The notes beneath the pieces were generated by a model. That model was not told the DNA's origin and ran no database searches. It worked only from the letters and a program-made list of their open reading frames with translations. Below, piece after piece: positions 3,744 through 18,244 of a DNA stretch of 25,263 nt. The position numbers and the translations under genes are program-made. Source of the DNA: a virus. The stretch spans positions 1 through 25,263 of IMG/VR virus record IMGVR_UViG_3300032579_000642; one strand, 5' to 3'. Every line of letters starts with the position of its first letter. The stretch's first letter is position 1.

Positions 3744-5348
3744 ATGAGCAGGAAAGTCTTATCAGGACCGGAAATCCGCGCGGCACTCTTGCGCGGCGTC
3801 AACACGCTGGCCAACACTGTTACGGCAACCCTCGGACCAAAGGGCCGTTGCATCATCCTCGAACGTAATCCCATGTGGCCGCCAGTCGTTACAAAGGACG
3901 GCGTGACTGTGAGCAAGGAAGTCCGCGACCTAGCCGACCCCTACGAGAACGCCGGCGCGCAGCTCATCCGTGAGGCAGCCAGCAAGACGAGCGACCAGGC
4001 GGGAGACGGCACCACCACGGCTACCCTGCTGGCCCAGCGCATCTACCAGAAGGGTCTGGAGTGCCTTGACGCAGGAGCCAACCCTGTCGCCCTCAAGCGC
4101 GGCATCGACAAAGCCGTAGCTGTCGTGGTCGAGCACATCAAGACTATCGCGCAGCCGGTAGAGGACAACGAGACCATCGCCCGGGTGGGCACCATCTCGT
4201 CAAATGGCGACCGCTCCATAGGCGACCTGATAGCCGACGCCATGCACCGCGTAGGCCGGGACGGGGTTATCACCATATCCGACTCGAACGATGCCGATAC
4301 CACGCTCACCGTGTCCGAGGGAATGCAGATCGACCGCGGCTGGTTCCCGCTGCATCCATTCGTGACCAATCCTGAGCGCCTGGAGACCGTGCTGCACGAT
4401 GCCTACATCCTGCTCACTGAGCGCAAGATGTTCACCATGACCGACGAGCTGTCGAACGTGCTGGCGGAGATTGGCAAGAGCGAGAAAACCGTTCTCTTGA
4501 TCGTCGGTGACTACGACCAGCCGTTTATCGTGACGCTCATCCACAACAACCAACTTGGCGTGCTGCGGTCTGTGGTCATCAAGGCGCCGGCATTCGGCGA
4601 CGACCGGCGGGCAGCGCTTGAGGATCTGGCCGTCGTGACCGGCGGGTACGCCTTCACCGAGAACTGCGGGCGGGAGTTGGCCAGCATCACGGTTGACGAC
4701 CTGGGCCGGGCAAGTCAGATCACGGTCGAGCAGAACAGCACCACCATCGTCGGCGGGTACGGCGACAAGCACGCCAAGGATGTGCGCATGACCATGCTGC
4801 GGTCGCTGATCGAGGCGACTGACAATGACTACCAGCGTGAGTTGCTGCGCAAGCGACTGGCGCGCCTCGCGTCCGGTGTGGCTGTTATCAAGGTTGGAGC
4901 CGTCACTGAGGCGGAGCGGAACGAGCGGAAGGACCGCGTTGACGATGCGGTGTGCGCGACTCGGGCAGCCGTGATGGAGGGAATCGTACCTGGCGGGGGT
5001 ATGGCGCTGATCCTGTCGATAGATGCGGTGAGCGTTCTGATGGCTGAGCACAGGGCCACCGATGACGAGGCCGATGGGATGGCGATTATCATGGACGTCC
5101 TGCGCGAGCCCCTACTCCAGATTTGTTCCAATGCGGGCGAGGATGGGACCGAGATACTCAATACCATCGTTCGCGGCGGGCCGGGGATTGGCTACAACGC
5201 GGCGACGGGGGTATTCGAGGATCTGATCCAGGCGGGCGTGATCGATCCTTGCCGGGTAGTTCGGTGCGCTCTCCAGAATGCGGCAAGCGTGGCAGCGCTG
5301 ATGCTCACAACCGAAAGTATGGTTTGCACAATTCCTGACAAAAAGTAG
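3744..5348 (+). CDS. groEL: GroEL-like chaperonin
   Basis: The product is an ATP-driven protein-folding chamber. Conserved elements are LGPKGR at 30-35, TKDG with the ATPase Asp52, GDGTTT at 87-92, KAPAFGD at 280-286, [13 protein letters not shown] at 398-410 with Asp401 equal to E. coli Asp398, and PGGGMALI at 416-423. The length is 534 against 548 residues: the Gly-Gly-Met tail is missing and the protein ends soon after TTESMV. By alignment to E. coli GroEL, the apical binding groove differs (Tyr199 to Trp200, Val264 to His267, with a one-residue insertion near Tyr203). Of the contacts known to hold the two rings together, Arg452 is Leu458 and Val464 is Glu470. A phage copy may be specialised for a capsid or tail protein. 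The ribosome site is AGGAAG before ATG 3744. The gene is intact. Confidence 0.96.
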
Positions 5349-6203: not shown

Positions 6204-6334
6204 AAACTCCTCGTCGCAAACGCACACCGTACACGCTGGAGTTCAAGCACGACTGCACGCTGTACTTCGCGGCCAGCACCGTGTTCGTCAAAAAGGGGTC
6301 CAGGGTTCGCGTGGTGGAAAGGAAAGGCAAGTGA
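6200..6334 (+). CDS. small basic protein, 44 residues
   Basis: The sequence begins MKTPRRKRTPYTLEFKHDCT and continues as alternating hydrophobic and basic residues, suggesting a small beta-sheet protein that could bind nucleic acid. It starts in an overlap with the preceding micro-ORF and ends in a GTGA overlap with the methyltransferase. The ribosome site is weak (AAGAAG). Not recognised; support is from the tight coupling and absence of any other use of this stretch. Confidence 0.55.
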   Translation: MKTPRRKRTPYTLEFKHDCTLYFAASTVFVKKGSRVRVVERKGK

Positions 6335-7575
6335 AAGCGACCGTCTTGGTAGGCGACGTGCTGACACGGCTGGCGCAGTTAGCTGATAACAGTGTCCAGT
6401 GCGTGGTGACGAGTCCACCATACTGGGGCCTTCGCGATTATGGCGTGGACGGCCAGCTCGGCATGGAGTCCAGCCCATACGAGTACATCGCCAAGCTGGT
6501 CGGAATCTTCCATGAAGTTCGCCGCGTTCTGTGTGGGGATGGAACTTTGTGGTGCAACATGGGCGACTGCTACGCGAGCGGTGACAAGGGCGGATACGCG
6601 CGAAACCGTGTCACGGCTTCAGACTCGATGCAAGCATCGAACTTAGGAGATAACTTCATTGGAGCGCCTAACAGGCAATGGGGCGGCCTTCCACCTAAGA
6701 ACCTTATCGGGATGCCTTGGCGTTTAGCTTTTGCACTCCAAGCTGACGGTTGGTATCTGCGCCAGGACATCGTTTGGGCCAAGCCGAACCCGATGCCGGA
6801 GAGCGTCACTGACCGATGCACCAAGAGCCATGAGTACCTGTTTCTGCTGACCAAGAGCGCCCGGTACTACTACGATCAGAATGCCATTCTCGAAAACTGC
6901 AGTCCTGCCACGCACGACCGTCTTTCACAGAACGTTCAAGCGCAAATCGGCTCGGAACGCGCCCATGCGGGGGGGAAAACTAACGGGAACATGAAAGCCG
7001 TTGCGCGCCATCTCCCCGGCAATAAAACTCACAAAGGAACCACAGCCTACGAGAACGGCGACAAGCGAATGCGGACCAAGGCAGGACTCGTGGACTATGC
7101 CGTGCGGGTTCGCAAGCTGGCCGAGGCGGGCAGCGGGACAAAGAACAACGATAGTTTTGATGCGGCCATGTCGATCATGCCAGAGAAGCGCAACAAGCGA
7201 TCTGTCTGGACCATCACGACCCAGCCCTATTCCGAAGCCCACTTTGCAACATTCCCCGAGGCCCTTGTCGAACCCTGCATTCTCGCCGGAAGTAAAGAGG
7301 GAGATATGGTACTTGACCCGTTCTGCGGTTCTGGCACGACAGGGGCCGTGGCGCTCAGGTATCAGAGAGAGTTTGTGGGCATCGAACTGAACCCGGCATA
7401 CGCTGAACTGAGTCGCAAGCGCATCGGAGCAGAAGCGCCAATGTTCAACGATGTATCTGTGCTCGCCCCAGACTCGGCCTACCCATGGTCACCGGCTGGG
7501 CCAACTTCGCCGACGCCTGCTCCATCTTCCACCGTGTCACCGCAATCGAGCGCTGATCGACGCCAGCCGCAATGA
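6331..7575 (+). CDS. beta-class DNA methyltransferase (N4-cytosine or N6-adenine)
   Basis: The enzyme methylates exocyclic amines in DNA using S-adenosylmethionine. Catalytic motif IV TSPPYW (27-32) comes before the SAM-binding motif I DPFCGSGTTG (329-338), which is the beta-class order. The Ser-Pro-Pro-Tyr form is more usual in N4-cytosine enzymes, whereas N6-adenine enzymes often have Asp-Pro-Pro-Tyr. The middle part (about 80-300) is the target-recognition region. The start is GTG 6331 with GGAAAGGAAAGG upstream, in a GTGA overlap. No restriction enzyme gene is adjacent, so it is probably a phage orphan protecting DNA or marking it. The conserved core ends near residue 371 (EAPMF). The last 43 residues are Pro/Ser-rich and are read antisense to the terminase 3' end, so the tail is probably not functional. 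Confidence 0.92.
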   Translation: MKATVLVGDVLTRLAQLADNSVQCVVTSPPYWGLRDYGVDGQLGMESSPYEYIAKLVGIFHEVRRVLCGDGTLWCNMGDCYASGDKGGYARNRVTASDSMQASNLGDNFIGAPNRQWGGLPPKNLIGMPWRLAFALQADGWYLRQDIVWAKPNPMPESVTDRCTKSHEYLFLLTKSARYYYDQNAILENCSPATHDRLSQNVQAQIGSERAHAGGKTNGNMKAVARHLPGNKTHKGTTAYENGDKRMRTKAGLVDYAVRVRKLAEAGSGTKNNDSFDAAMSIMPEKRNKRSVWTITTQPYSEAHFATFPEALVEPCILAGSKEGDMVLDPFCGSGTTGAVALRYQREFVGIELNPAYAELSRKRIGAEAPMFNDVSVLAPDSAYPWSPAGPTSPTPAPSSTVSPQSSADRRQPQ

Positions 7576-8992
7576 GTTGCTGGATCTTCTCCTCGGTGGC
7601 TACTTGGTCCGGCTTCCTGTCGCCAGTGAGGAACTGGTTCAGTCCATACAAAGTCTCATCGAGTACGTCGTCTAACTCGTCACCGGGAACCTTCAAAATA
7701 GCGCCCGGCCTGTCCGGGTCTGTCTTCCGACTGGTCAAACTCTCGTATGTCTTGGGACAAAGGTCGGTGACGATGAATTCTCCCCGACTCAACTTGCCGC
7801 TGAGTAGTTGCGCATTGCCTACGCTATCCTTTGCGGCCTTGGTCAGCGTAACTCCGTTGTTGATCAGAACATCGTTGATAAGGTCGAGGTTACTCTTGCC
7901 TGTCCCTGTGTGCGCGTCCATTGCCGGATCCGCATACCCTGAGACAATCCGGCACTGTTGGCCGCCAGGCCCTACCCGCTGAATGAACTTGCGGGCGATA
8001 TGGTGCGCGTACTCCTCCGACTTCATCTTGCGCTCAACGTCCTCGGCAATCTTATAGATGCGCGTGTTCTCGTGCAGGAAGTATAGGCCTGTCGCCGCCG
8101 CTGATCCAGAGTAGCCGTAATCCATCGAAATGAAGTGGGTCATCCACCACTGCTCACCGCACTCGGAGTACGGCAGGATGTAACTCTCGTTGAGGAACGG
8201 GAAGAAGGCGCCCTCTGTGGCACACCAGCACCCAAACAGTAACTTCTTCTGAATATCAGCGGTCTGCGACATCAGAGCGGCGACTTTCTCCTCGCCGTAC
8301 AAGGGGTTATCGGACGCCTTGGCAGGAATGAAGCATGTAGTTTTCATTACTGGCGACTCGTCTTCTTTCCAGCGAGCCCCAGCGTACACAGCTCCAGGAA
8401 TAACCGATCTTTCAGGATGGCAGAGAGGACATGCATTGTTGAGGAATATAGACATCAGCCACGGAGTAGACGGGTTCGCTGTCAATCTGATTCGATTTCT
8501 CAACCCATACTCGGGAGGAGTTGCCACCCATGGGAATAGAGACCGAACACGCTTTTCTGTTTGAAACTGTGCCTCATCGATGCCTAGCCATGAGATAGGC
8601 TTTCCAGTGTACAGCTCAACGTCTGAGTCTTTAGCCATGTATCCCAGACGCATTTGTCCACCGGCAGGGAAACGCCAGAGGCGACCGCCCTCACTCTTCC
8701 GTCCTCCGAGGGGCTCATAGATTTTCTTCATCTCATCCATGATGTTTGCCATCTCAGTGAACGACTTACGAAGGAGAATACCGCGAAAGTTGGGGTTATC
8801 AAATTCTTGAGCGGAATCTCCTACCAAACTCGATGTTTTTCCTCCGCCTGAACTTCCCCCGAAAAGCGCTAACTGCGCACGGCAGTTGATGAGTGTCATT
8901 TGTGGGGGGCAGTTAGGTGCCCATCCAGACACAGCGTGAACGTCTGCGGGAAGGGGTATGATACCTCTATTTTCAAGAAGGGTTAAGGCCAT
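7445..8992 (-). CDS. terL: terminase large subunit (ATPase-nuclease)
   Basis: This is the motor that pumps phage DNA into the prohead and cuts it to length. Walker A is GGSSGGGKT at 45-53 and Walker B SWLGIDEA is at 134-141, with the catalytic Glu at 140. The C-terminal RNase-H-like nuclease shows its acidic triad in ISMDYGYS (Asp291), YADPAMD (Asp355) and DELDDVLD (Asp441/442). At 515 residues the length is normal. The ATPase also carries a small CPLCH element (188-192). The start ATG 8992 lies inside the 3' end of the endonuclease gene, with AGAGGA just upstream. It is the last gene of the minus-strand block, as TerL is in T7-like phages. Its 3' end overlaps the convergent methyltransferase by 131 bases. 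Confidence 0.96.
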   Translation of the reverse strand: MALTLLENRGIIPLPADVHAVSGWAPNCPPQMTLINCRAQLALFGGSSGGGKTSSLVGDSAQEFDNPNFRGILLRKSFTEMANIMDEMKKIYEPLGGRKSEGGRLWRFPAGGQMRLGYMAKDSDVELYTGKPISWLGIDEAQFQTEKRVRSLFPWVATPPEYGLRNRIRLTANPSTPWLMSIFLNNACPLCHPERSVIPGAVYAGARWKEDESPVMKTTCFIPAKASDNPLYGEEKVAALMSQTADIQKKLLFGCWCATEGAFFPFLNESYILPYSECGEQWWMTHFISMDYGYSGSAAATGLYFLHENTRIYKIAEDVERKMKSEEYAHHIARKFIQRVGPGGQQCRIVSGYADPAMDAHTGTGKSNLDLINDVLINNGVTLTKAAKDSVGNAQLLSGKLSRGEFIVTDLCPKTYESLTSRKTDPDRPGAILKVPGDELDDVLDETLYGLNQFLTGDRKPDQVATEEKIQQLIAAGVDQRSIAVTRWKMEQASAKLAQPVTMGRPSLGRAQIHR

Positions 8993-9536
8993 AGTCCTCT
9001 TTTGGAAAATTCAATCTTGCAAATTGGCCGCGCAGTTCAATTGCTTTCCTGTCGCGGGCTCGCGCTGCGGACTCTTTTGTCTTGAAGCATCCAATGTAAG
9101 TGTGCTTGTTCAAGTGCGATATGACAGCGACAAAACAGTCATTCTGTCTGTGGGCATAAACGCCAATGAATCCGCTCGTGTTCTTCCGCGTGGCGCGCGC
9201 GTTTTGCTTGTTCTCTAAAACAGTCGAGATACGCAGATTAGAGCGTCGATTGTCTAAGGTGTGGGTGATCTCTTCGTGATCTCCCTGTCTTGGGTCGCCG
9301 CGTTTCAATCCGAGAATCTCGCGGTGCATGTAAATCTGGTGACGCCCACCTATCTCTTTTCGAGACGACGAGCGGACAGCGTAAAAACTCTGGCTGTTCT
9401 CGCACCAGGTCGCGTACCACTTGTAAAGAGACAGCCATTCGTAATCAGCGGCGTCAACGATGGTCGCCTGCCCCTTTGTGAGTTGAATTGTGCGATACTC
9501 GGGAGTGGGCTGGGAAGCCAGTTCAAGCTGGTCCAT
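8973..9536 (-). CDS. HNH/AP2 homing endonuclease between the terminase genes
   Basis: This 187-residue protein separates the small and large terminase genes. After an N-terminal strand-rich region with two tryptophans (WLSLYKWY), the HNH core is IYMHREILGLKRGDPRQGDH at 68-87 (His71, Asp86-His87), followed by LDNRRSNLR. An AP2-like module (SGFIGVYAHRQ to the ESAARARDR helix) follows at about 121-163. I chose ATG 9536 over GTG 9551 because GGAGG sits 8 bases upstream of it. The stop lies 20 bases inside the terminase gene and supplies that gene's ribosome site. Residue order and the KRGDPRQ motif show it is a relative of the endonuclease at 5407. A packaging-linked HNH role (as in HK97 gp74) is a less likely alternative because of the AP2 module. 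Confidence 0.88.
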   Translation of the reverse strand: MDQLELASQPTPEYRTIQLTKGQATIVDAADYEWLSLYKWYATWCENSQSFYAVRSSSRKEIGGRHQIYMHREILGLKRGDPRQGDHEEITHTLDNRRSNLRISTVLENKQNARATRKNTSGFIGVYAHRQNDCFVAVISHLNKHTYIGCFKTKESAARARDRKAIELRGQFARLNFPKEDYGLNPS

Positions 9537-9538
9537 AG

Positions 9539-9558
9539 AAGCGCCCTCCACGGCGCTT
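9539..9558 (-). promoter_or_regulatory. hairpin holding the ribosome site of the HNH gene
   Basis: On the minus strand AAGCGCC and GGCGCTT form a perfect 7-pair, GC-rich stem around the loop GTGGAG. The Shine-Dalgarno GGAGGG is half in the loop and half in the stem. The stem ends 2 bases before ATG 9536. Such a fold would limit ribosome access. RBS-masking hairpins are known on homing endonuclease genes of T4-type phages; regulation here is inferred. Confidence 0.6.
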
Positions 9559-9580: not shown

Positions 9581-10171
9581 TCAAAAGTTGGCCCAGGGAT
9601 CGTCTTCGACTTGCGCCTCGATCGTTGGCGCGTTTTGAACAGGGGCTTGTGGAACCTGTGGAGAATAGGTCTGTCCGCTTCGCTGTGTGACCACCTGCCG
9701 CGTCTCGGTGATCGAGTGGGTGATGATGGTCTGCTCCGCCGGCCGGTAGATGCGCGGCGCCTCTTCTTTGGTGGGACCGCTCGACGCGTCGGGTACGAAG
9801 TTGTTATCGAGGAGCAGGCCTACCCGCTTGTAGCCCATCTCGATTGCGTTGACCTTTGGGGTGGCCAGGCTGGGGGTCGCCTCAAGCGTCTTGCGCGGAA
9901 TCGTGATGACCTGCTTCAAGTTGGCGTCGAGCATCTCGACATTGATAAGCCGCTTCTTGACCAGGACCGCAGTCACAGCCTTCTCGACGGGCTCCATGCG
10001 GCGGGTGATCTCCTCGAATACCGCCTTGCGCCGGTAGAGGCCCATGCCTTCTCTGGACGTAAAGCCCGCCTCAAGTGCTGCTTTGCCTACATCCCGGCAA
10101 GCGCAATAGGCGTCCACGAACTTGAGCAGTTGCGGCTGGAGCGGAATGGGGATGCTGGTATCGACTTCCAT
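9581..10171 (-). CDS. terS: terminase small subunit
   Basis: The small terminase recognises the packaging site and hands DNA to the motor. The call rests on the N-terminal helix-turn-helix region (QLLKFVDAYCACRDVGKAAL to EAGFTSREGMGLYRRKAVFE, residues 14-53), which matches the usual phage TerS pattern of repeated crossing helices. A helical oligomerisation part follows (to about 95). The last 60 residues are Pro/Gln/Thr-rich and end in DDPWANF, a short acidic tail of the kind that often contacts TerL. The start ATG directly follows the stop of the upstream gene (TAAATG), with AAGGAG 12 bases before it. The location upstream of TerL agrees, although an endonuclease gene now lies between them. 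Confidence 0.8.
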   Translation of the reverse strand: MEVDTSIPIPLQPQLLKFVDAYCACRDVGKAALEAGFTSREGMGLYRRKAVFEEITRRMEPVEKAVTAVLVKKRLINVEMLDANLKQVITIPRKTLEATPSLATPKVNAIEMGYKRVGLLLDNNFVPDASSGPTKEEAPRIYRPAEQTIITHSITETRQVVTQRSGQTYSPQVPQAPVQNAPTIEAQVEDDPWANF

Positions 10172-10818: not shown

Positions 10819-10943
10819 CAGTGCCGCTCTCGATTGAAAATGTCGGAGATGGACACGCCCACGGCTGGGATGAGTGCTTTCAGGAGTAGCGCAACGATCA
10901 CGATGAAGATCAGAGCAGCGAGGTTCAGAGCGAGCGTAATCAT
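10818..10943 (-). CDS. single-span membrane peptide (holin-like?)
   Basis: The 41-residue product starts MITLALNLAALIFIVIVALL and has one clear hydrophobic segment (about 3-21 or longer), then a short amphipathic tail ending FNRERH. It starts in an ATGA overlap with the 669-residue multi-domain protein and ends in TGATG with the next gene, so it is very likely translated. T7 places its holin (gene 17.5) in the same position before the small terminase. A holin, a spanin part or a membrane partner of the upstream protein are all possible. Confidence 0.6.
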   Translation of the reverse strand: MITLALNLAALIFIVIVALLLKALIPAVGVSISDIFNRERH

Positions 10944-12949
10944 GCGACTATTTTACCCGTGTTTCGCTCGACATGGACTGCGCGATCATCGTAAAACTTT
11001 TCCAGAAGATCATCCTTCACGTCCTGCATGGGTAGACTTCTCCCGAACACTTTATAAGTCCAGGCTTCAAGTGCCGCGCGGTTCAATCCTTTCGGATCAT
11101 CCGATAGTTTCGCTGTGAAGAGCCGCACATCTTTTCCGTCGGCGATATCCTTTTTGGCTCGTTCCACCAGCGCCGAAACGGGATTCCCTATTTTGAATGA
11201 CGGTTGGCCCTTGGTCCAATGAGCAAGAGAACCATCGACATCATATCCAATCCAGTGCAATGCCGGGTTTGGCTTTGGGGAGTGCGGGATAGGTTGCAAT
11301 TCACTTCCCTTGAATGTACGCAGACCGCCGGGAGAGAGAACGCTCCAACGGCCTCCATTTGAGAAGTTGGGATTACCACCGTGGACGATGCCGAAGCTAT
11401 CCTTTCCGATGATCACGGTGATGCCTTTGGATAACTTGACAGGCTCAACTTTCGATGACTTCTCGCTATCGTTCCGCTCGTTAAACTTTTCCATTGCAGC
11501 ATCGTTTATAGCTTTGGCCTGCTTCTCTTTCTTTTCGGCGGTCGCATCCTTGCCCTCTAAGTCGGCCTCGCGCGCTGCATCGTATACGTCATGCTGATGC
11601 GCATTGGCTTCCAAGACCTCCTTGGGCACAATGTGAATCTCGGCTGACAACTGCGGCGTCACCCGAGCCTGTAGCTTGTGGACGCGATAGTTCGTCGGTG
11701 GTGATCCCCTCTCAAATTCGTCCTCGTCTCGGATCACTTTGAAGTGATTCTTAACTGCGGCAACAGTGCGCTCGTGGGCATCGCGGGAGTCCACGCCGAT
11801 CCTGCCGGCCAGAATATCGGGGATGGTGTGGACCGGCTGGCCCTCTTCCTTGATCTTCTCATCAATCCGCTCCGGAGATTTCTCAGGCCGAACGGCATCG
11901 AATTTTGCTCCGGCAATGCCGCGGGTAACCGCCTTGAGTCCGTCCTCGAATTGCTGAGCGTGCGCTTTGGCTTGGCTGACAAGCTGCGCGCGGTCCTTGG
12001 ATTTGTGGAGTATATCGCGACCGGTGGAGGGATCTTTGGAGGGAAAGTCTCGTTGCTCTAATTGAACCTCATCAGCATTGCCGTCACGGTCGGTGATTGA
12101 GATGGAGTTGACGGTGAAAGTCTTGCCGTCAGCCTCGGTCATGCCGGTGTAGCGTTTCGCCTCTTCTGGCTTTACGTAGGCAACCGTGGCGTGTGGCTTG
12201 TATTCAGGGAATGACCGCTCGGCAAATGTGCCGTGCTTCTCGATCTCCTTTTCCATCCGGCGCAGGTCGGCAGACTCAACCGGCACAATGATCGGCGCCG
12301 CCCCATCGCTGTGCTCGCTAGGCGGGAATGCCTGAGTCTTGCCGAGGGACGCCTCAAAGGGCGCTTGCTTCTCCAGATACGCGCGAACGCCTGCGGTGTC
12401 GCCGTCGATGCCGTACCGCACGGTGATGTGCGCGTCCTCAATCAAACCATCGCCCATCAGATCGGCGGGGTCGATAGCCTTGCGGAGTTTGGCGAGCGCT
12501 TTGCCTGCATCGCTGTCGGGAGGAATGTCGGCCTGCGTGTAGCCGTGCTTGTACTTCGGTTTTACTTCTTCCGCATGATCCTTTTGCCCGCCCGGCTTGG
12601 CGCTTTCTCCGGCAGTTTGAGCCCCTTGCTGCTGTCCTGCCACTCCTTCACTCCGCTCGCTCCCAGTGCCTTCTTTGCGCTCGGGGTGTATAGCCATCTC
12701 CTCTGGCTTTCTGACTTCGCTGGCATCTTCTTTTTCTCCTTGTCGATGGTCTGCAATTGAATCGATGTTGTTCCGACTGCCGTGATACTCATGGGATATT
12801 TCCTCTTTTTCTCCATCGGTTGAGGCGCGGCGCACGATAGGTAGCCCAGTCGCTTCATCGAACGCCGTTACCTTTCCAGCGGGATGAACTGATCCGTGAG
12901 GCCTGAATCCTGCACTTAGATCGATATCGTCTTCGATTGCAATTGCCAC
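10940..12949 (-). CDS. 2H phosphoesterase / RelA-SpoT-like / HAD-like fusion protein
   Basis: This 669-residue protein has three enzyme-like domains. Residues 1-45 are folded-looking and 46-130 low-complexity. The 2H phosphoesterase domain (about 133-300) has both signature motifs, HITV at 174-177 and HATV at 253-256. The RelA/SpoT-like domain (about 320-455) has Arg354, Lys357, Lys365, Asp378 in IPDILAGR, Tyr421 and Glu437 in AEIHI, matching the pyrophosphate-transfer residues of Rel synthetases. The HAD-like domain (560-669) has DVDGS at 570-574, FTAK at 611-614 and YDDRAV at 653-658. The start is GTG 12949, sharing one base with the upstream stop (TAGTG). The gene sits where T7 has gp16, an ejected core protein, so delivery with the DNA is plausible. 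Function is inferred: processing of alarmones, cyclic oligonucleotides or tRNA ends. No membrane segment is seen. Confidence 0.85.
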   Translation of the reverse strand: MAIAIEDDIDLSAGFRPHGSVHPAGKVTAFDEATGLPIVRRASTDGEKEEISHEYHGSRNNIDSIADHRQGEKEDASEVRKPEEMAIHPERKEGTGSERSEGVAGQQQGAQTAGESAKPGGQKDHAEEVKPKYKHGYTQADIPPDSDAGKALAKLRKAIDPADLMGDGLIEDAHITVRYGIDGDTAGVRAYLEKQAPFEASLGKTQAFPPSEHSDGAAPIIVPVESADLRRMEKEIEKHGTFAERSFPEYKPHATVAYVKPEEAKRYTGMTEADGKTFTVNSISITDRDGNADEVQLEQRDFPSKDPSTGRDILHKSKDRAQLVSQAKAHAQQFEDGLKAVTRGIAGAKFDAVRPEKSPERIDEKIKEEGQPVHTIPDILAGRIGVDSRDAHERTVAAVKNHFKVIRDEDEFERGSPPTNYRVHKLQARVTPQLSAEIHIVPKEVLEANAHQHDVYDAAREADLEGKDATAEKKEKQAKAINDAAMEKFNERNDSEKSSKVEPVKLSKGITVIIGKDSFGIVHGGNPNFSNGGRWSVLSPGGLRTFKGSELQPIPHSPKPNPALHWIGYDVDGSLAHWTKGQPSFKIGNPVSALVERAKKDIADGKDVRLFTAKLSDDPKGLNRAALEAWTYKVFGRSLPMQDVKDDLLEKFYDDRAVHVERNTGKIVA
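12562..12726 (-). CDS. nested small phage protein in an alternative frame
   Basis: A 54-residue reading lies entirely inside the 669-residue gene, in another frame of the same strand. It starts MPAKSESQRRWLYTPSAKKA and continues with GVKEW and GLKLPEKA, ending in a basic tail. The pattern of KS-x-x-QRRW, an EW pair and a LPE element resembles small phage proteins starting MPAKSKAQQRF that occur near head genes. AAGGAG at 12736-12741 lies 9 bases before the ATG. The host frame at this place is a disordered linker, as expected where one sequence serves two frames. The family resemblance is from memory. Confidence 0.5.
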   Translation of the reverse strand: MPAKSESQRRWLYTPSAKKALGASGVKEWQDSSKGLKLPEKAPSRAGKRIMRKK

Positions 12950-15228
12950 TATTCCACCACCTTATAGCCCAACGCGCGGGCATGTTTCGATGCTGCCGCT
13001 AAATCACGTTTTGGATTAGCCGCCCGCCATGCCGATTTGCTCCATTCATGGGTTGCTGGAGATGGCAGCGGTTTCGGGGTTGGCAATTGACCCGCTGGGA
13101 TTCTTTCCGGCAATCCCGCCGGCCCAACCTTGAATCCTGCTGGGGCTGGTGGCGTCGGCACCGGGTTGGACGCCAGCGGCTGCACCCTCATTCGGCTTGT
13201 GGCCTCATTCAAGGGCGGTGCGGTCGGGGGTGATGGTAGTGGCGCTCCCTGCGCCCCTGGACTGGCCTGCGCGGGCAACTGGAGCACGGCATCCGGTTCG
13301 GGCGTGATGACCGCTGGGGTGACCGGCGCTGGCGATCCTGGGCGCGCTGCGCCTTCCGGCGTGACGTTGAAGCCGGGAGGCGCCCCCGGTGGCGCTGCGG
13401 GTGGCTGTGGCTGTCCTGATGGCCCAACCTCGGCATTGCCCGGTACGTCTGCGGGGAGTTGCAACTGTGGGTTGGCTAGTTGTCGCCGAGCGGCGCTGAA
13501 TTGCGGCGGCGGTTCAGGCGGCGGGGTGCGGTCGGGCAACTTTGAGAAAAATCGCTGCAATCCCTCTTGCACCTGGCCGAGTGGCGTTACGCCGAGTCCC
13601 TTCTCGGCAATGATTCTCGCTGTTCCCGAGATTGGGCCAGCGCCCATCGTTCTTGCGCCCGTCAGCGCGTCCGCGATAGTCGCCTTGACACCCTTCGGCT
13701 CCTGAATCAGCGCCTCTTTGGACGCCAATTGCGGGGCAGCATTGCCGAGCGCCTCCTGAGCCTTCATGATGCTTGACTCTGTGCGCTTGGCTGCGCTGAA
13801 ATCCTGCCCGCTGGCCTTTTCTAGTTGGTCGTAATACTCACCACGGAGTTTCGATAGCGCGTCCGACATGGCCGAGTCGACGGTCCCACTCCGGCCGGCG
13901 GCAATTGCGTTCTTGCGGAACTGTGGCGCTAGTTCGCGGTTGAGGTACATCCGGAGTTCGTTGGCCCCGCCCAACGTATCAACCTTACCTAGCCGATCCT
14001 TCAGGTCGGTGATGGCTGCCGCATCTTCCGGCGAGAATCCCTCAAGCGATTCAGGGAATGTCACTGCGGCCTGGACTGGACGGGGATCGAACGGAGCATT
14101 GGCGACGGGCTGGAGTGCAGCTTGGTGCTGATCGTCAATAATCCCCTTGGCTTTGTCGAGCAGGTTTTGAGTCGCCGCAAGCGCATCTTCCGGCGCTCCC
14201 GAGCGAATCGCCTTGACTATCTCTGGATTATCGGCGGCAACCTGCCGGAGTGGACTGCCAATGTCCTGGGCGACCTGCTTTGGGAAGTAGTCTTTCCCCA
14301 TGCCGGTTCCGCGCGCCAGAACGCCGCTAAGTGACTTGTGCTGCCCCTGGGTGTAGTTCTCGCCCTCGACTGGGCGGTTGCGCCGGAACTGAGTCAGCGC
14401 CTCGTCTGCGGTATCCTGGGCGACAGCACGGACGGCATCAGGGAGCGCCTTGACACCCTCAATCACTTTCGGCGCCAACTTTCCAGACGCCATGGTTGCG
14501 GCCAGAGGAAGCAGCGCGGCGATAGCGCCTCCAATGTCGCCCGCCGCTACGTGTTCTCCGATCTGCTGTCCAGCATCGGCGGCCATAGGTCCGAGACCTG
14601 GAATAGTCGCTGCTAGTCCATGACCGAGAGCTAACTCGCGGTGCTCAACCGCTTGCGGTGAGGGATTCATTGAATACCAGGGAGTTGCAGCATCAGCTTG
14701 TTTGAATTCGCTTACCGCTTGAGAGCCCTGATCTATGGCGCCCCGTGCAATTCCCTCAAGACCCCTTTCGACAATCGCTCCTCCAGGCACTACGGCATTT
14801 GCTGCCGATTCTTGCGGATTAGTCGCGTCGGGATTGATCGACTGCGCAATACCTTTGCCAAGGTTTGTAAATCCTCGCCGCGCTGTTTCCGAGAACCCTC
14901 TCGCCGGACGTGTGGGGTCTTGCGTGAAATCTTGCTGATACGCTTCTTCTGGTTTCAGCCCACGCTGTGGGATGGGATTCGTGTCGAACTGGTAGCCGAG
15001 TTCCTTAGCCTTCGGGACGGCGCTGTATGGAATCGGTAACTTATGCCCGTTGTCGTTCCACATCGGATAAACGCCTTCGCCAGGCTTGCCTGTCAGATCG
15101 GGAGGCGCGGCGGGTTGGTTACCAAGCGGAACCTCGGTGAGCCCATCCGGAACGCCTTGCACCCCAGACGATATTGGGACTTCGGTCAGTCCTTCCGGCA
15201 CTCCCTCAATTGCTGGACTGGTAGGCAT
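12949..15228 (-). CDS. large virion core-like protein, 759 residues
   Basis: Probably an internal virion (DNA-ejection) protein, judged by place and composition; I recognise no enzyme motif. The N-terminus has two copies of GVP(E/D)GLTEVP. Residues 75-170 are Gly/Ala-rich. Around 200-250 lie Ala/Gly-rich hydrophobic stretches (ELALGHGLAATIPGLGP and IGGAIAALLPLAATMASG) that could insert in a membrane. Residues 260-540 are helical and charged, likely coiled. From about 560 to 740 the chain is very Pro-rich, ending in a short basic helix. It starts in TAATG with the upstream gene. T7 gp15 (747 residues) is similar in size and place. No lytic transglycosylase motif is visible. Confidence 0.8.
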   Translation of the reverse strand: MPTSPAIEGVPEGLTEVPISSGVQGVPDGLTEVPLGNQPAAPPDLTGKPGEGVYPMWNDNGHKLPIPYSAVPKAKELGYQFDTNPIPQRGLKPEEAYQQDFTQDPTRPARGFSETARRGFTNLGKGIAQSINPDATNPQESAANAVVPGGAIVERGLEGIARGAIDQGSQAVSEFKQADAATPWYSMNPSPQAVEHRELALGHGLAATIPGLGPMAADAGQQIGEHVAAGDIGGAIAALLPLAATMASGKLAPKVIEGVKALPDAVRAVAQDTADEALTQFRRNRPVEGENYTQGQHKSLSGVLARGTGMGKDYFPKQVAQDIGSPLRQVAADNPEIVKAIRSGAPEDALAATQNLLDKAKGIIDDQHQAALQPVANAPFDPRPVQAAVTFPESLEGFSPEDAAAITDLKDRLGKVDTLGGANELRMYLNRELAPQFRKNAIAAGRSGTVDSAMSDALSKLRGEYYDQLEKASGQDFSAAKRTESSIMKAQEALGNAAPQLASKEALIQEPKGVKATIADALTGARTMGAGPISGTARIIAEKGLGVTPLGQVQEGLQRFFSKLPDRTPPPEPPPQFSAARRQLANPQLQLPADVPGNAEVGPSGQPQPPAAPPGAPPGFNVTPEGAARPGSPAPVTPAVITPEPDAVLQLPAQASPGAQGAPLPSPPTAPPLNEATSRMRVQPLASNPVPTPPAPAGFKVGPAGLPERIPAGQLPTPKPLPSPATHEWSKSAWRAANPKRDLAAASKHARALGYKVVE
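15127..15204 (-). repeat. two-copy protein-coding repeat
   Basis: Two copies of a 10-residue unit, GVPEGLTEVP and GVPDGLTEVP, are encoded with a period of 16 codons at the start of the 759-residue protein. The DNA copies have diverged at third positions, so the repeat is kept at protein level. It could be a binding motif for another virion protein. Confidence 0.6.
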
Positions 15229-17216
15229 TATTTTTTCACCGCCTGATATTTTCCGTTGACCGCATATCCGACAACCGCGCCACTCTTATCGGTGTAGGCG
15301 TGGGTAGCGCCGGGAGGTGGGGAAGGTGCTTTCGGGGTAGATGTGGGAGTAGTTCCGCCACGCACGTTATGGCCGCCCTTCATCTGCGGCAAACCCTCAG
15401 CGAGACGATTGGCGGTCAGGCGAATCTGACCGGTCTGCTTCTTGAGGTAATCGAGGTCCGGAGTGCTGGCTCCTGGAGCCATTTCCATGAGGCGATTGAC
15501 TTGAGCATCGGACACGCCACCGCCAGCCGATTGCCTGAGAGCCTGCAAGTTCTCTTTGTACGCCTTGACGTTGGTAACATAATCGCGCTCCTCCGGTGAG
15601 AGCCCGCTCGTTGCAAAAGCACCTTGAGCCCATTGGACCGAAGTACTCTTCGGATCAGCAATGGCTGTAGCAACTGCCGGATTGTTGAGTTGTCCGCCAG
15701 CCTGCACGAGCCGTTCAGCAGTCTTTTCGATGTTATCGGTCGCGCCAAGGACGTCGTTGAATTGCGCCGTCTTGCCTTCCTGCTTGATGTAGGGGGCCGC
15801 AAGCGAAGTGCCGATAGGTTTACCTGCTGCCGAAGTGGCCCCGCCTTCGAGTTGGTTTCCTTCTAAGTCAGTTCCGAGCATCTGTCCCGATGCACGAAGG
15901 GCGTAGGAGTTTGCCTTCTTCATCTCGGCGTCTATTTGTTTCTGTTTTTGCTCGAAAGCTGGAGTTCCTGGGGTGATCTTTTCCCTTTCGATTTCGGCAC
16001 GTAATTGCTGTGTTTTCTGTATTGAAGCTCGCCAATCGCTGAGAGCCTGTTTTTGCTTTGTGATAGGCGAGTCGGGATCTTCTGAGTAAGTCAACTTCCC
16101 ATCTGGTCCTGTCGTAGATTTAAGGCCTAGCGCGGCAGCCCGTTCGTCAGCATTCAATCCGGCAATGTCTTTTCTTCCTTGAGTGTTAACCCCCGCCACC
16201 GCAACCGTCTTAACGGCAGATGCCGGCAAGGACGTTCCAACGAAGGGCTTTAGCGCTGCATTCTCTTCACCCATAGCGGCAGTGATTGGAATGGGCTGTT
16301 CTGATTCAGTTCTGGCTTGCTCTTCTGCTGTTTTCGTATTTGCTGCGCCCTGTGTGAGTTGCTGTTGGAGATTCGCAGTCATCCCGGCGTTACGCCTGGC
16401 TGCGTCAGAGAACGCGCGAGTCGGTGCGCCGTATGGAGTTGCGCCTACCGCAGCCGGATCGACTGCGCCCATGAGAGCGCCAGCTATGCCGTGCTCAGCC
16501 AAACCCTCAAGGCCAGCCTTCAAGCCTCTGCCAAACCTCTGCCAGCGCGTCGGGTTGTAGGTCCCGCTGTTCGGGTCATTGGGGTCACGGAGTTGCGGTA
16601 CGCCTGTCGGATTCGCTGCGGTGCGTGGTGAGTTCGCCGCCGCCAATCGCGACTCAACGGCGTTCATATCGACCGGCGCGCTGGTATTGGAAGAATTAGG
16701 CTTCAAAGATAGTACGCCGTCTTGGACGTTGTTTGGATTGACGGGATTTTCTTGCCCGGTTGATGCTCCGTCCATCGGGAGAACATTTGACGGGACCGCC
16801 CGCGCGCCCGTCGAATCAGTTGGCGGATTGGGCGCATTGGTCGTCGGCATCTGGGCCTGCGCACCAGCCGCAAGACTCTGCCCGAATCCCTCCATTGGGC
16901 TCTTGTTATCGAGTGTCATGCCGTATGGTTTGGAGTCTTGCTCCGCGGGCTGGTTGGTTGCCGTGCCTGTCGCTGGCGCCGGCGTCGATGCGGGAGCAAC
17001 CGCGGCTTGCGGCTTTCCTACCGCCGCGGCAAGAGGGCTCGGTGGAGCAACCACCGGTCGCGCGGCTGTCGGCAGGGGAAACGGTACTCCCGATTGGTGC
17101 GCCGCCAAATACCCGGATGGGTCTCCCGACGCAAGCATCTCCTCCCAATCGACGCCGGATGACGCAATCGGGGATGCCGATGGAATTAGGCCTTGAAGTC
17201 CGTTCGTGTCCGCCAT
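15228..17216 (-). CDS. large virion core-like protein, 662 residues
   Basis: Likely an internal virion or tail-associated structural protein, from its place in the late block. The first 230 residues are rich in Pro, Ala, Ser and Asn and look disordered. A Gly/Ala segment follows (GLKAGLEGLAEHGIAGALMG, about 235-254). Residues 280-600 are mostly helical and charged, with Gln-rich stretches such as QKQALSDWRASIQKTQQLRA consistent with coiled coils. The C-terminus has a Pro-rich linker and a short strand pair (HAYTDKSGAVVGYAVNGKYQ) ending in AVKK. No catalytic motif is seen. GGGGA precedes ATG 17216. The 3' end shares one base with the next start. Confidence 0.8.
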   Translation of the reverse strand: MADTNGLQGLIPSASPIASSGVDWEEMLASGDPSGYLAAHQSGVPFPLPTAARPVVAPPSPLAAAVGKPQAAVAPASTPAPATGTATNQPAEQDSKPYGMTLDNKSPMEGFGQSLAAGAQAQMPTTNAPNPPTDSTGARAVPSNVLPMDGASTGQENPVNPNNVQDGVLSLKPNSSNTSAPVDMNAVESRLAAANSPRTAANPTGVPQLRDPNDPNSGTYNPTRWQRFGRGLKAGLEGLAEHGIAGALMGAVDPAAVGATPYGAPTRAFSDAARRNAGMTANLQQQLTQGAANTKTAEEQARTESEQPIPITAAMGEENAALKPFVGTSLPASAVKTVAVAGVNTQGRKDIAGLNADERAAALGLKSTTGPDGKLTYSEDPDSPITKQKQALSDWRASIQKTQQLRAEIEREKITPGTPAFEQKQKQIDAEMKKANSYALRASGQMLGTDLEGNQLEGGATSAAGKPIGTSLAAPYIKQEGKTAQFNDVLGATDNIEKTAERLVQAGGQLNNPAVATAIADPKSTSVQWAQGAFATSGLSPEERDYVTNVKAYKENLQALRQSAGGGVSDAQVNRLMEMAPGASTPDLDYLKKQTGQIRLTANRLAEGLPQMKGGHNVRGGTTPTSTPKAPSPPPGATHAYTDKSGAVVGYAVNGKYQAVKK

Positions 17217-17225
17217 GCGTTCCCC

Positions 17226-17804
17226 CTACTTCTTTCCCACGTAAGCCGCGCCTATCTGTCCGGCACCAGTAATAAGCCCCTGCCCCAGTTCATCCATAAA
17301 GCTCGGCGTCTGCGCGGCCTGCTCCTCGGTGCTTGCCTGGCCCTGAGCCGTGTTCGATTCCTGAGAGGCAAGATTCTGCTGCGCCTGCGTGATCTGCCCT
17401 TCCGCTCCGAGCACGTCCTGGCCGTACTTTGCCCCCGCCGCAAGCCGGCTCTCGGTCGCCCCAGCCTCCTGGGTGCCTAGCATACGCTGTGCCGCTTGCT
17501 GCTCCGCCTCACCTGCCGCCACGCCGGCCGATGCGTTCTGCCCGGTTCTCTGAGCCTGCGTCTGGTTCTTGGCCGCCGCCGCCGCCGCTGTCGCATCCGC
17601 CGTTCCTGCCAACTGGCGATTCGTCACCGAATCCATCTGGCCGCCCTGGACATAGGGATTATTGGCCGCGAACTTGGCGAGTTGGCTCTGCTGTGTGCCA
17701 ATGTCGGCCTGAGTCGCGGCATCCGACGCCTGCGTTTCCGCTGTGCTTGTCGCGGTATTGGCCTTCTCGGTATCAACGATGTCACCTTGCTGGGCACGGC
17801 TCAT
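17226..17804 (-). CDS. Ala/Gln-rich protein, gp14-like by position
   Basis: The 192-residue product is dominated by Ala, Gln, Thr and Gly, with long helical runs (ADATAAAAAAKNQTQAQRTG and similar). It ends with a weakly hydrophobic stretch, GQGLITGAGQIGAAYVGKK. Size and place match T7 gp14 (196 residues), an internal core protein that forms an outer-membrane channel during DNA ejection. I see the position and composition, not sequence identity. It starts in an ATGA overlap with the acetyltransferase-like gene and is followed by the two large core-like proteins. Confidence 0.75.
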   Translation of the reverse strand: MSRAQQGDIVDTEKANTATSTAETQASDAATQADIGTQQSQLAKFAANNPYVQGGQMDSVTNRQLAGTADATAAAAAAKNQTQAQRTGQNASAGVAAGEAEQQAAQRMLGTQEAGATESRLAAGAKYGQDVLGAEGQITQAQQNLASQESNTAQGQASTEEQAAQTPSFMDELGQGLITGAGQIGAAYVGKK

Positions 17805-18244
17805 TGTGTCTTCTCCCTTAAATCCTTGAAAAAGTGCGCTAAACAGTCATCGTTTCGGCTGAATCCCGCCTTGTCGAGCGGCTTGCCGATGGCGTCAGCG
17901 AGAGCGATGGGCACATCGCAATGCAGGCCTGAGTAGCCAAGCCATGAGAGCACGCCTGCCAGACCGTCAATATCCCGCCGCGCGAATGCCGTAGCCTTCG
18001 GGTTATCGCAGCCAGCAAACATCAACTCCGCCCGCCGTTCAACCCAGATCGCCTGTACCGGCACATCAGACCCTTCCTCGCAACCCACAAGCGCCACCGG
18101 CACACGATCGGTTCCAGCTCCCACCTTGTCAAAGAAAGCAGGCAGCGGGTAGCTGGTCCCGTCACGCTCATTCTGCTCGTCATGGAAGCGGCGAATATAC
18201 GGAAGATCGGCGGGGGTCGCTGGACGGAGGATGATCGGCTTCAC
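17801..18244 (-). CDS. GNAT-fold acetyltransferase-like protein
   Basis: The 147-residue protein opens as GNAT proteins do (IILRPATPADLPYIRRFHDE, residues 4-23) and closes with a GNAT-type helix and strand (KPLDKAGFSRNDDCLAHFFK). The canonical acetyl-CoA loop (Gln/Arg-x-x-Gly-x-Gly/Ala) is not visible, so enzyme activity is doubtful. T7 gp13 (138 residues) occupies the same place between tail and core genes, so this may be a virion-assembly protein on a GNAT scaffold. The start is GTG 18244 in a GTGA overlap, with GGGAG upstream. Confidence 0.75.
   Translation of the reverse strand: MKPIILRPATPADLPYIRRFHDEQNERDGTSYPLPAFFDKVGAGTDRVPVALVGCEEGSDVPVQAIWVERRAELMFAGCDNPKATAFARRDIDGLAGVLSWLGYSGLHCDVPIALADAIGKPLDKAGFSRNDDCLAHFFKDLREKTQ

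Follow-up and report, generated by a model that had tools for sequence, protein, structure and literature searches.

Gene order around the 669-aa protein

The window, meaning the whole 25,263 nt stretch of viral DNA that was analysed, carries an ORF of 669 aa on its minus strand (10940–12949). The ORF begins with a GTG start codon and encodes, in order, a 2H phosphoesterase, a RelA/SpoT-type (Rel), a small SH3/KOW-like and a HAD-type domain. An earlier note on this DNA had given the ORF at these positions, and the strand is added here. The GTG start overlaps the TAG stop of an upstream gene of 759 aa (12949–15228, minus strand), and the two genes are likely to be translationally coupled. In one relative (L007), the homologue of the 759-aa protein is fused at its C-terminal side into a longer protein of 1512 aa, of which it makes up the N-terminal portion.

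The 669-aa gene sits between a structural cassette (1027, 357, 126, 147, 192 and 662 aa) and the terminase genes. Within the cassette, the 147-aa gene (17801–18244, minus strand) is conserved in relatives, and the 662-aa gene (15228–17216, minus strand) is weakly conserved at the same place. Downstream are the genes for the terminase small subunit (TerS; 9581–10171, minus strand; PHROG 51, E 9.8e-6) and large subunit (TerL; 7445–8992, minus strand; PHROG 979, E 1.3e-27). Much of this structural-cassette/terminase gene order is kept in relatives. No annotated phage was matched in tblastn searches with the 1027-aa and 147-aa cassette proteins. The earlier note had likened the gene to that of T7 gp16, and the position between structural genes and terminase does agree. 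The likeness ends there; neither Pfam nor PHROG returned a transglycosylase or gp16 match for the window protein or the two upstream proteins, and sequence kinship to gp16 was rejected.

Several other genes lie nearby. An HNH endonuclease gene is located between the terminase genes (8973–9551, minus strand). It is 97 % identical in the relative L002, versus 75–83 % for TerS/TerL, which suggests a putative homing endonuclease that has recently moved. A block of opposite-strand genes includes an N6/N4 DNA methyltransferase (6331–7575, plus strand; E 2.1e-49). The phage also encodes a chaperonin pair on the plus strand, a GroES-like Cpn10 (2569–2886; E 1.2e-13) and a GroEL-like Cpn60 (3744–5348; E 4.4e-60), with a 213-aa gene between them.

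Three enzymatic domains in one polypeptide

The fusion of 2H, Rel and HAD domains described in the earlier note was confirmed, each of the three being supported by motifs, profiles or predicted folds. Several distinct effector-type domains are therefore present within a single polypeptide. PADLOC gave no match for the window protein, which showed neither a zincin peptidase nor a MuF domain. Ahead of the first domain, residues 22–42 (HPAGKVTAFDEATGLPIVRR; 12824–12886, minus strand) are almost identical in the relatives L002 and L005, within a region otherwise predicted to be disordered (pLDDT ~35–50 in the full-length model).

The 2H domain (residues 134–298; 12056–12550, minus strand) is supported by Pfam, structure and residue conservation. 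Pfam 2_5_RNA_ligase2 matches above its curated cut-off (E=1.9e-9), and the PHROGs match is a 2H-type ‘RNA ligase’ family. The two H-x-T motifs read by the earlier note, His174-x-Thr176 and His253-x-Thr255, are identical in 13/13 aligned homologues. Fold comparison had been proposed as a check. The 2H domain is confidently modelled (pLDDT ~95) and its predicted structure matches LigT, CPDase, Usb1 and Acb1 (VIA Z 13–16 over 135–163 residues). With Acb1, an anti-CBASS 2H nuclease (PMC9117128), it shares the fold and the HxT/HxT tetrad (VIA Z 13.1). It differs from Acb1 in being fused to other enzymes and in falling below the cut-off of the Pfam Acb1 model (E 1.3e-3; 18.9 versus 27 bits), and LigT, CPDase and Usb1 fit it equally well or better. 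A 2H profile gave only weak matches among PDB sequences, two of them to Acb1 (E 0.15 and 0.32). Judged from the predicted structure, the domain cannot be assigned to Acb1 over other 2H enzymes, and CBASS, which the earlier note had put forward as an example of a target, is not upheld as a specific one.

The Rel domain (residues 311–467; 11549–12019, minus strand) reaches 21.3 bits with Pfam RelA_SpoT, short of the cut-off of 27 (E=3.3e-4). A shallow alignment makes the full-length model unreliable over Rel, and the fold was judged from a separate family model built on 21 sequences (pLDDT 88.3). Alarmone synthetases are the top PDB matches to this model: the best 50 Foldseek matches are all RelA/SpoT-type synthetases, as are the best 29 in VIA (Z 14.5 to 9.3). 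Searching PDB sequences with a Rel profile produced 19 hits at E=1 or better (best E 0.0036), almost all of them to RelA/SpoT-family enzymes and three to a cytochrome. In that profile alignment Lys357 faces residue 243 of RelSeq (1vj7).

In an alignment of 21 homologues with identities as low as 18 %, just 8 of 157 Rel positions are invariant. Six residues had been named in the earlier note as catalytic-type positions in family order, and five of these (Arg354, Lys357, Lys365, Asp378 and Glu437) are among the eight (hypergeometric P=4.4e-7). The sixth, Tyr421, varies (Y in 9, F in 6, A in 5 and L in 1). In RelA/SpoT synthetases, a residue of this type stacks on the guanine acceptor. A GDP/GTP acceptor is thus doubtful for part of the family, given that Tyr421 is not conserved. 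As far as computation allows, a Rel synthetase fold and active site are established by the model and the alignment.

Small alarmone synthetases and toxSAS proteins (RelP/RelQ, CapRel, Tas1, FaRel2) share with the window-family Rel the synthetase fold (Z up to 14.5) and the catalytic Arg/Lys/Lys/Asp/Glu set. They differ in sequence (~12–20 % identity), in the guanine-stacking Tyr, which is not conserved in the window family, and in that the window Rel is embedded in a phage multi-enzyme protein. In a tblastn search of 50,697 phage records, neither the window form of the Rel domain nor that of the relative L042 found a match. In Acidobacteria genomes, the Rel profile next picks up long Rel/SpoT-like proteins that belong to the bacteria themselves (E 1e-7 to 1e-12).

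The resemblance to the Rel-fold toxins Tas1, CapRel and FaRel2 raises the possibility of a host-takeover toxin, with Rel as the main part, acting as a (p)ppApp or tRNA pyrophosphokinase, and the other domains serving in self-protection or turnover. Phage SAS proteins linked to MuF, Apk2 among them, have been described (PMC12691689). However, no antitoxin-like partner was identified and many of the 2H-bearing relatives have no Rel domain, and we regard this explanation as unlikely.

Between Rel and HAD is a small SH3/KOW-like beta domain (residues 503–556; 11282–11443, minus strand), recognized by a weak VIA match to Tudor/KOW domains (Z ~7.5) and by its conservation in L002, L005 and L007. The HAD-type phosphatase domain closes the protein (residues 566–669; 10943–11254, minus strand). 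The HAD-type end reported earlier is well founded in that all four motifs are kept (I, D570/D572; II, T612; III, K645; IV, D654/D655) and are invariant in six same-order homologues. Its best match among solved folds is the T4 Pnkp phosphatase, a 3′-phosphatase, and this match is weak (E ~0.1, probability up to 0.97). An HAD profile found no relatives among PDB sequences. The phage HAD family phrog_1238 (‘phosphoheptose isomerase’) is related to this domain and covers the C-terminal part of the window protein weakly (E 0.011). Proteins of Rhizobium, Vibrio and Burkholderia phages are 31–39 % identical to the HAD domain, the matches in sequenced phages covering only this part of the query.

All 2H enzymes have a LigT-like fold, which bears on a further explanation, namely that the protein serves in the repair or control of tRNAs in the infected cell and not in the destruction of signals. 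The 2H domain would open 2′,3′-cyclic phosphates, a Pnkp-like HAD would remove 3′-phosphates and Rel would modify tRNA CCA ends. The nearest solved folds (CPDase/LigT for 2H and T4 Pnkp for HAD), the presence of CapRel and FaRel2, which pyrophosphorylate tRNA, among the Rel structure matches and a variable Tyr421, which fits an acceptor other than GTP, are all in keeping with such a role. Set against these are the generality of the LigT fold, the weakness of the Pnkp match, the lack of an RNA ligase partner among the window proteins searched and the report that 2H domains of polyvalent proteins were never seen with RNA ligases (PMC5512222). On balance this explanation is quite unlikely.

In the alignments, the catalytic residues of 2H, of Rel and of HAD are each constrained across the family. 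A protein with a purely structural role in ejection, its enzyme folds degenerate and catalytically inactive, would suit the structural/terminase neighbourhood, and the earlier note had named homologues without the catalytic residues as the case that would count against its own reading. The homologues instead retain both HxT motifs, all HAD motifs and five of the six Rel residues, and the invariant Rel positions are mainly catalytic; a purely structural protein is highly improbable.

Recurrence and reshuffling of the domains in related phages

A near-identical phage is present in IMG/VR as a 57.7 kb contig (99.995 % over 22 kb). Searches with the individual domains retrieved the relatives L002, L005 and L007; a 2H domain search retrieved 22 contigs and a wider 2H profile 47. 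The wider search also retrieved five contigs from bacterial genomes, of which two are Acidobacteria MAGs. The window phage probably infects soil Acidobacteria.

About a dozen contigs of phage or prophage origin encode all three domains in a single polypeptide, a count in which near-identical contigs (such as L046/L048) were not formally de-replicated. The search for homologues with the order 2H–Rel–HAD, suggested in the earlier note, yielded L002 and L005 in addition to the window. The order is Rel–2H–HAD in L036 and L052, and Rel–HAD–2H in L042, L043, L044, L046/L048, L051, L053, L056 and L058. Partial sets also occur: Rel and 2H without HAD in one protein (L057, L062, L065), Rel and 2H on adjoining genes (L037/L066, L060) and Rel and HAD without 2H (L007, L030, L032). 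Many 2H-bearing contigs have neither Rel nor HAD. As relatives were gathered with 2H and Rel queries, domain frequencies in this set are biased. The three-domain observation goes beyond chance: the named Rel residues are conserved far more often than expected at random, and other phages combine these domains too.

In several relatives, unlike the window protein and other relatives with the normal order, the HAD domain appears from its motif order to be circularly permuted (L006/L007, L030, L042, L043, L044, L046–L048, L053/L054, L056). Motif I (DxDxT) is located ~91–102 residues past the domain start in these domains, behind motifs II–IV; in L044 it reads DLDGTI. A keyword search of the literature, which was not exhaustive, gave no clear match for a published circularly permuted HAD.

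The class that fits the window protein best is that of the phage polyvalent proteins, which have many enzymatic domains per polypeptide, are encoded with virion and packaging genes and are predicted to be ejected (PMC5512222). Iyer et al. 2017 (PMC5512222) list both 2H and RelA/SpoT domains for this class, with proposed roles in destroying the host's nucleotide signals, in RNA cleavage or in alarmone synthesis. Relatives of the window protein likewise bear the DarB-like MTase–SNF2, ART-PolyVal and ddrB-ParB domains of the class: the three domains precede an N6 methylase and an SNF2 helicase in L051 and L056, L058 has a weak ART-PolyVal match and L062 matches ddrB-ParB. The 2H/Rel/HAD combination and the Acidobacteria-phage lineage were not found in PMC5512222, which places RelA/SpoT acquisitions in (pro)phages of Spirochaetes and epsilon-Proteobacteria; a word search of its main text returned no HAD phosphatase. 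Among the papers searched, none brought 2H, RelA/SpoT and HAD together. The polyvalent protein itself is a known kind, and on these searches the recurring combination with HAD is new.

Typical polyvalent proteins mix unrelated domains (PMC5512222), which favours the explanation that 2H, Rel and HAD are independent weapons against unrelated targets, joined in one polypeptide only through accretion. Relatives gain methylase, helicase, ART and ParB domains and freely lose one of the three. Yet the three re-form in three orders in diverged phages, a recurrence inflated by ascertainment through 2H and Rel queries, while Rel and 2H are found on neighbouring genes elsewhere and HAD is kept even when circularly permuted. 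This is a serious alternative, with somewhat less than an even chance of being correct.

A proposed virion-borne effector of nucleotide or RNA-end chemistry

The retention of the three domains despite their reshuffled order suggests an injected anti-host or anti-defence tool. The reading preferred here, which we consider reasonably probable, is that of a polyvalent effector. It would most likely travel in the virion, enter the cell together with the phage DNA and there act against nucleotide or RNA-end chemistry at the onset of infection. The protein would be made alongside the virion proteins, packaged, ejected and active early in the host. Its 2H domain may cleave a host-made 2′-5′, cyclic or 2′,3′-cyclic nucleotide bond as counter-defence; Rel would use ATP to pyrophosphorylate a nucleotide or a tRNA, so that the host is reprogrammed or shut down; and HAD would take off terminal phosphates. 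Against the effector reading, some relatives keep just two of the three domains, and many of those with 2H carry neither of the other two.

By analogy with related proteins, packaging and ejection are most likely. The gene lies beside TerS/TerL in the structural/packaging block, which indirectly supports a virion or ejected status. Further indirect support comes from relatives in which the three domains are fused to a DarB-like protein, since the 4515-aa DarB-like gp69 of phage JC1 was detected in purified virions by mass spectrometry (PMC9144972). The methylase–helicase part of L051 is 35–40 % identical over ~1500 aa to phage DarB-like antirestriction proteins (E=0); among known systems, Bcep22-like DarB-like proteins (JC1 gp69, PMC9144972) and P1 DarB come close. 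The window protein, in contrast, has only the N-terminal effector-type domains and no methylase–helicase, and its packaging is therefore argued from relatives and from position. In JC1, genes for a 146-aa acetyltransferase, a 196-aa virion protein and a 510-aa virion protein precede gp69 (PMC9144972), a layout that parallels the window cassette by size and order only. The acetyltransferase gene corresponds to the 147-aa window gene in size and place, with no sequence match found.

The earlier proposal, a single polypeptide able to make and to break nucleotide signals, is compatible with all three folds and, for 2H and RelA/SpoT, in line with the predictions in PMC5512222. In its strongest form, the three domains would be a single ejected write-and-erase unit that controls a nucleotide signal before phage gene expression, Rel pyrophosphorylating a non-canonical acceptor (a nucleotide second messenger or a tRNA end) and 2H and HAD removing or resetting nucleotide signals. 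Cooperation between the domains is inferred, and this strong form is decidedly unlikely.

The window protein is a compact example, open to testing, of enzymes that are probably carried together in the virion and directed at nucleotide signalling or RNA ends. With it an HAD phosphatase joins the polyvalent repertoire, in a combination that outlasts both changes of domain order and the circular permutation of HAD. At 669 aa, the window protein should also be easier to purify and assay than relatives of 2000–4000 aa.

Two relatives have further domains. The 4151-aa protein of L056 (6746–19198) contains a GGDEF domain above the Pfam cut-off (residues 698–761) between Rel and HAD; GGDEF domains are cyclic-dinucleotide synthases. 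The nearest 2H domain in an isolated phage is that of gp321 of Tunturiibacter phage Tunturi_5 (L086), whose gene lies between those for a head–tail connector and a minor tail protein. Annotated as a MutT/NUDIX hydrolase, gp321 matches Pfam 2H, ART-PolyVal (E 6e-48), GNAT and SprT-like domains, and on these matches is a predicted polyvalent protein in a cultivated acidobacterial phage.
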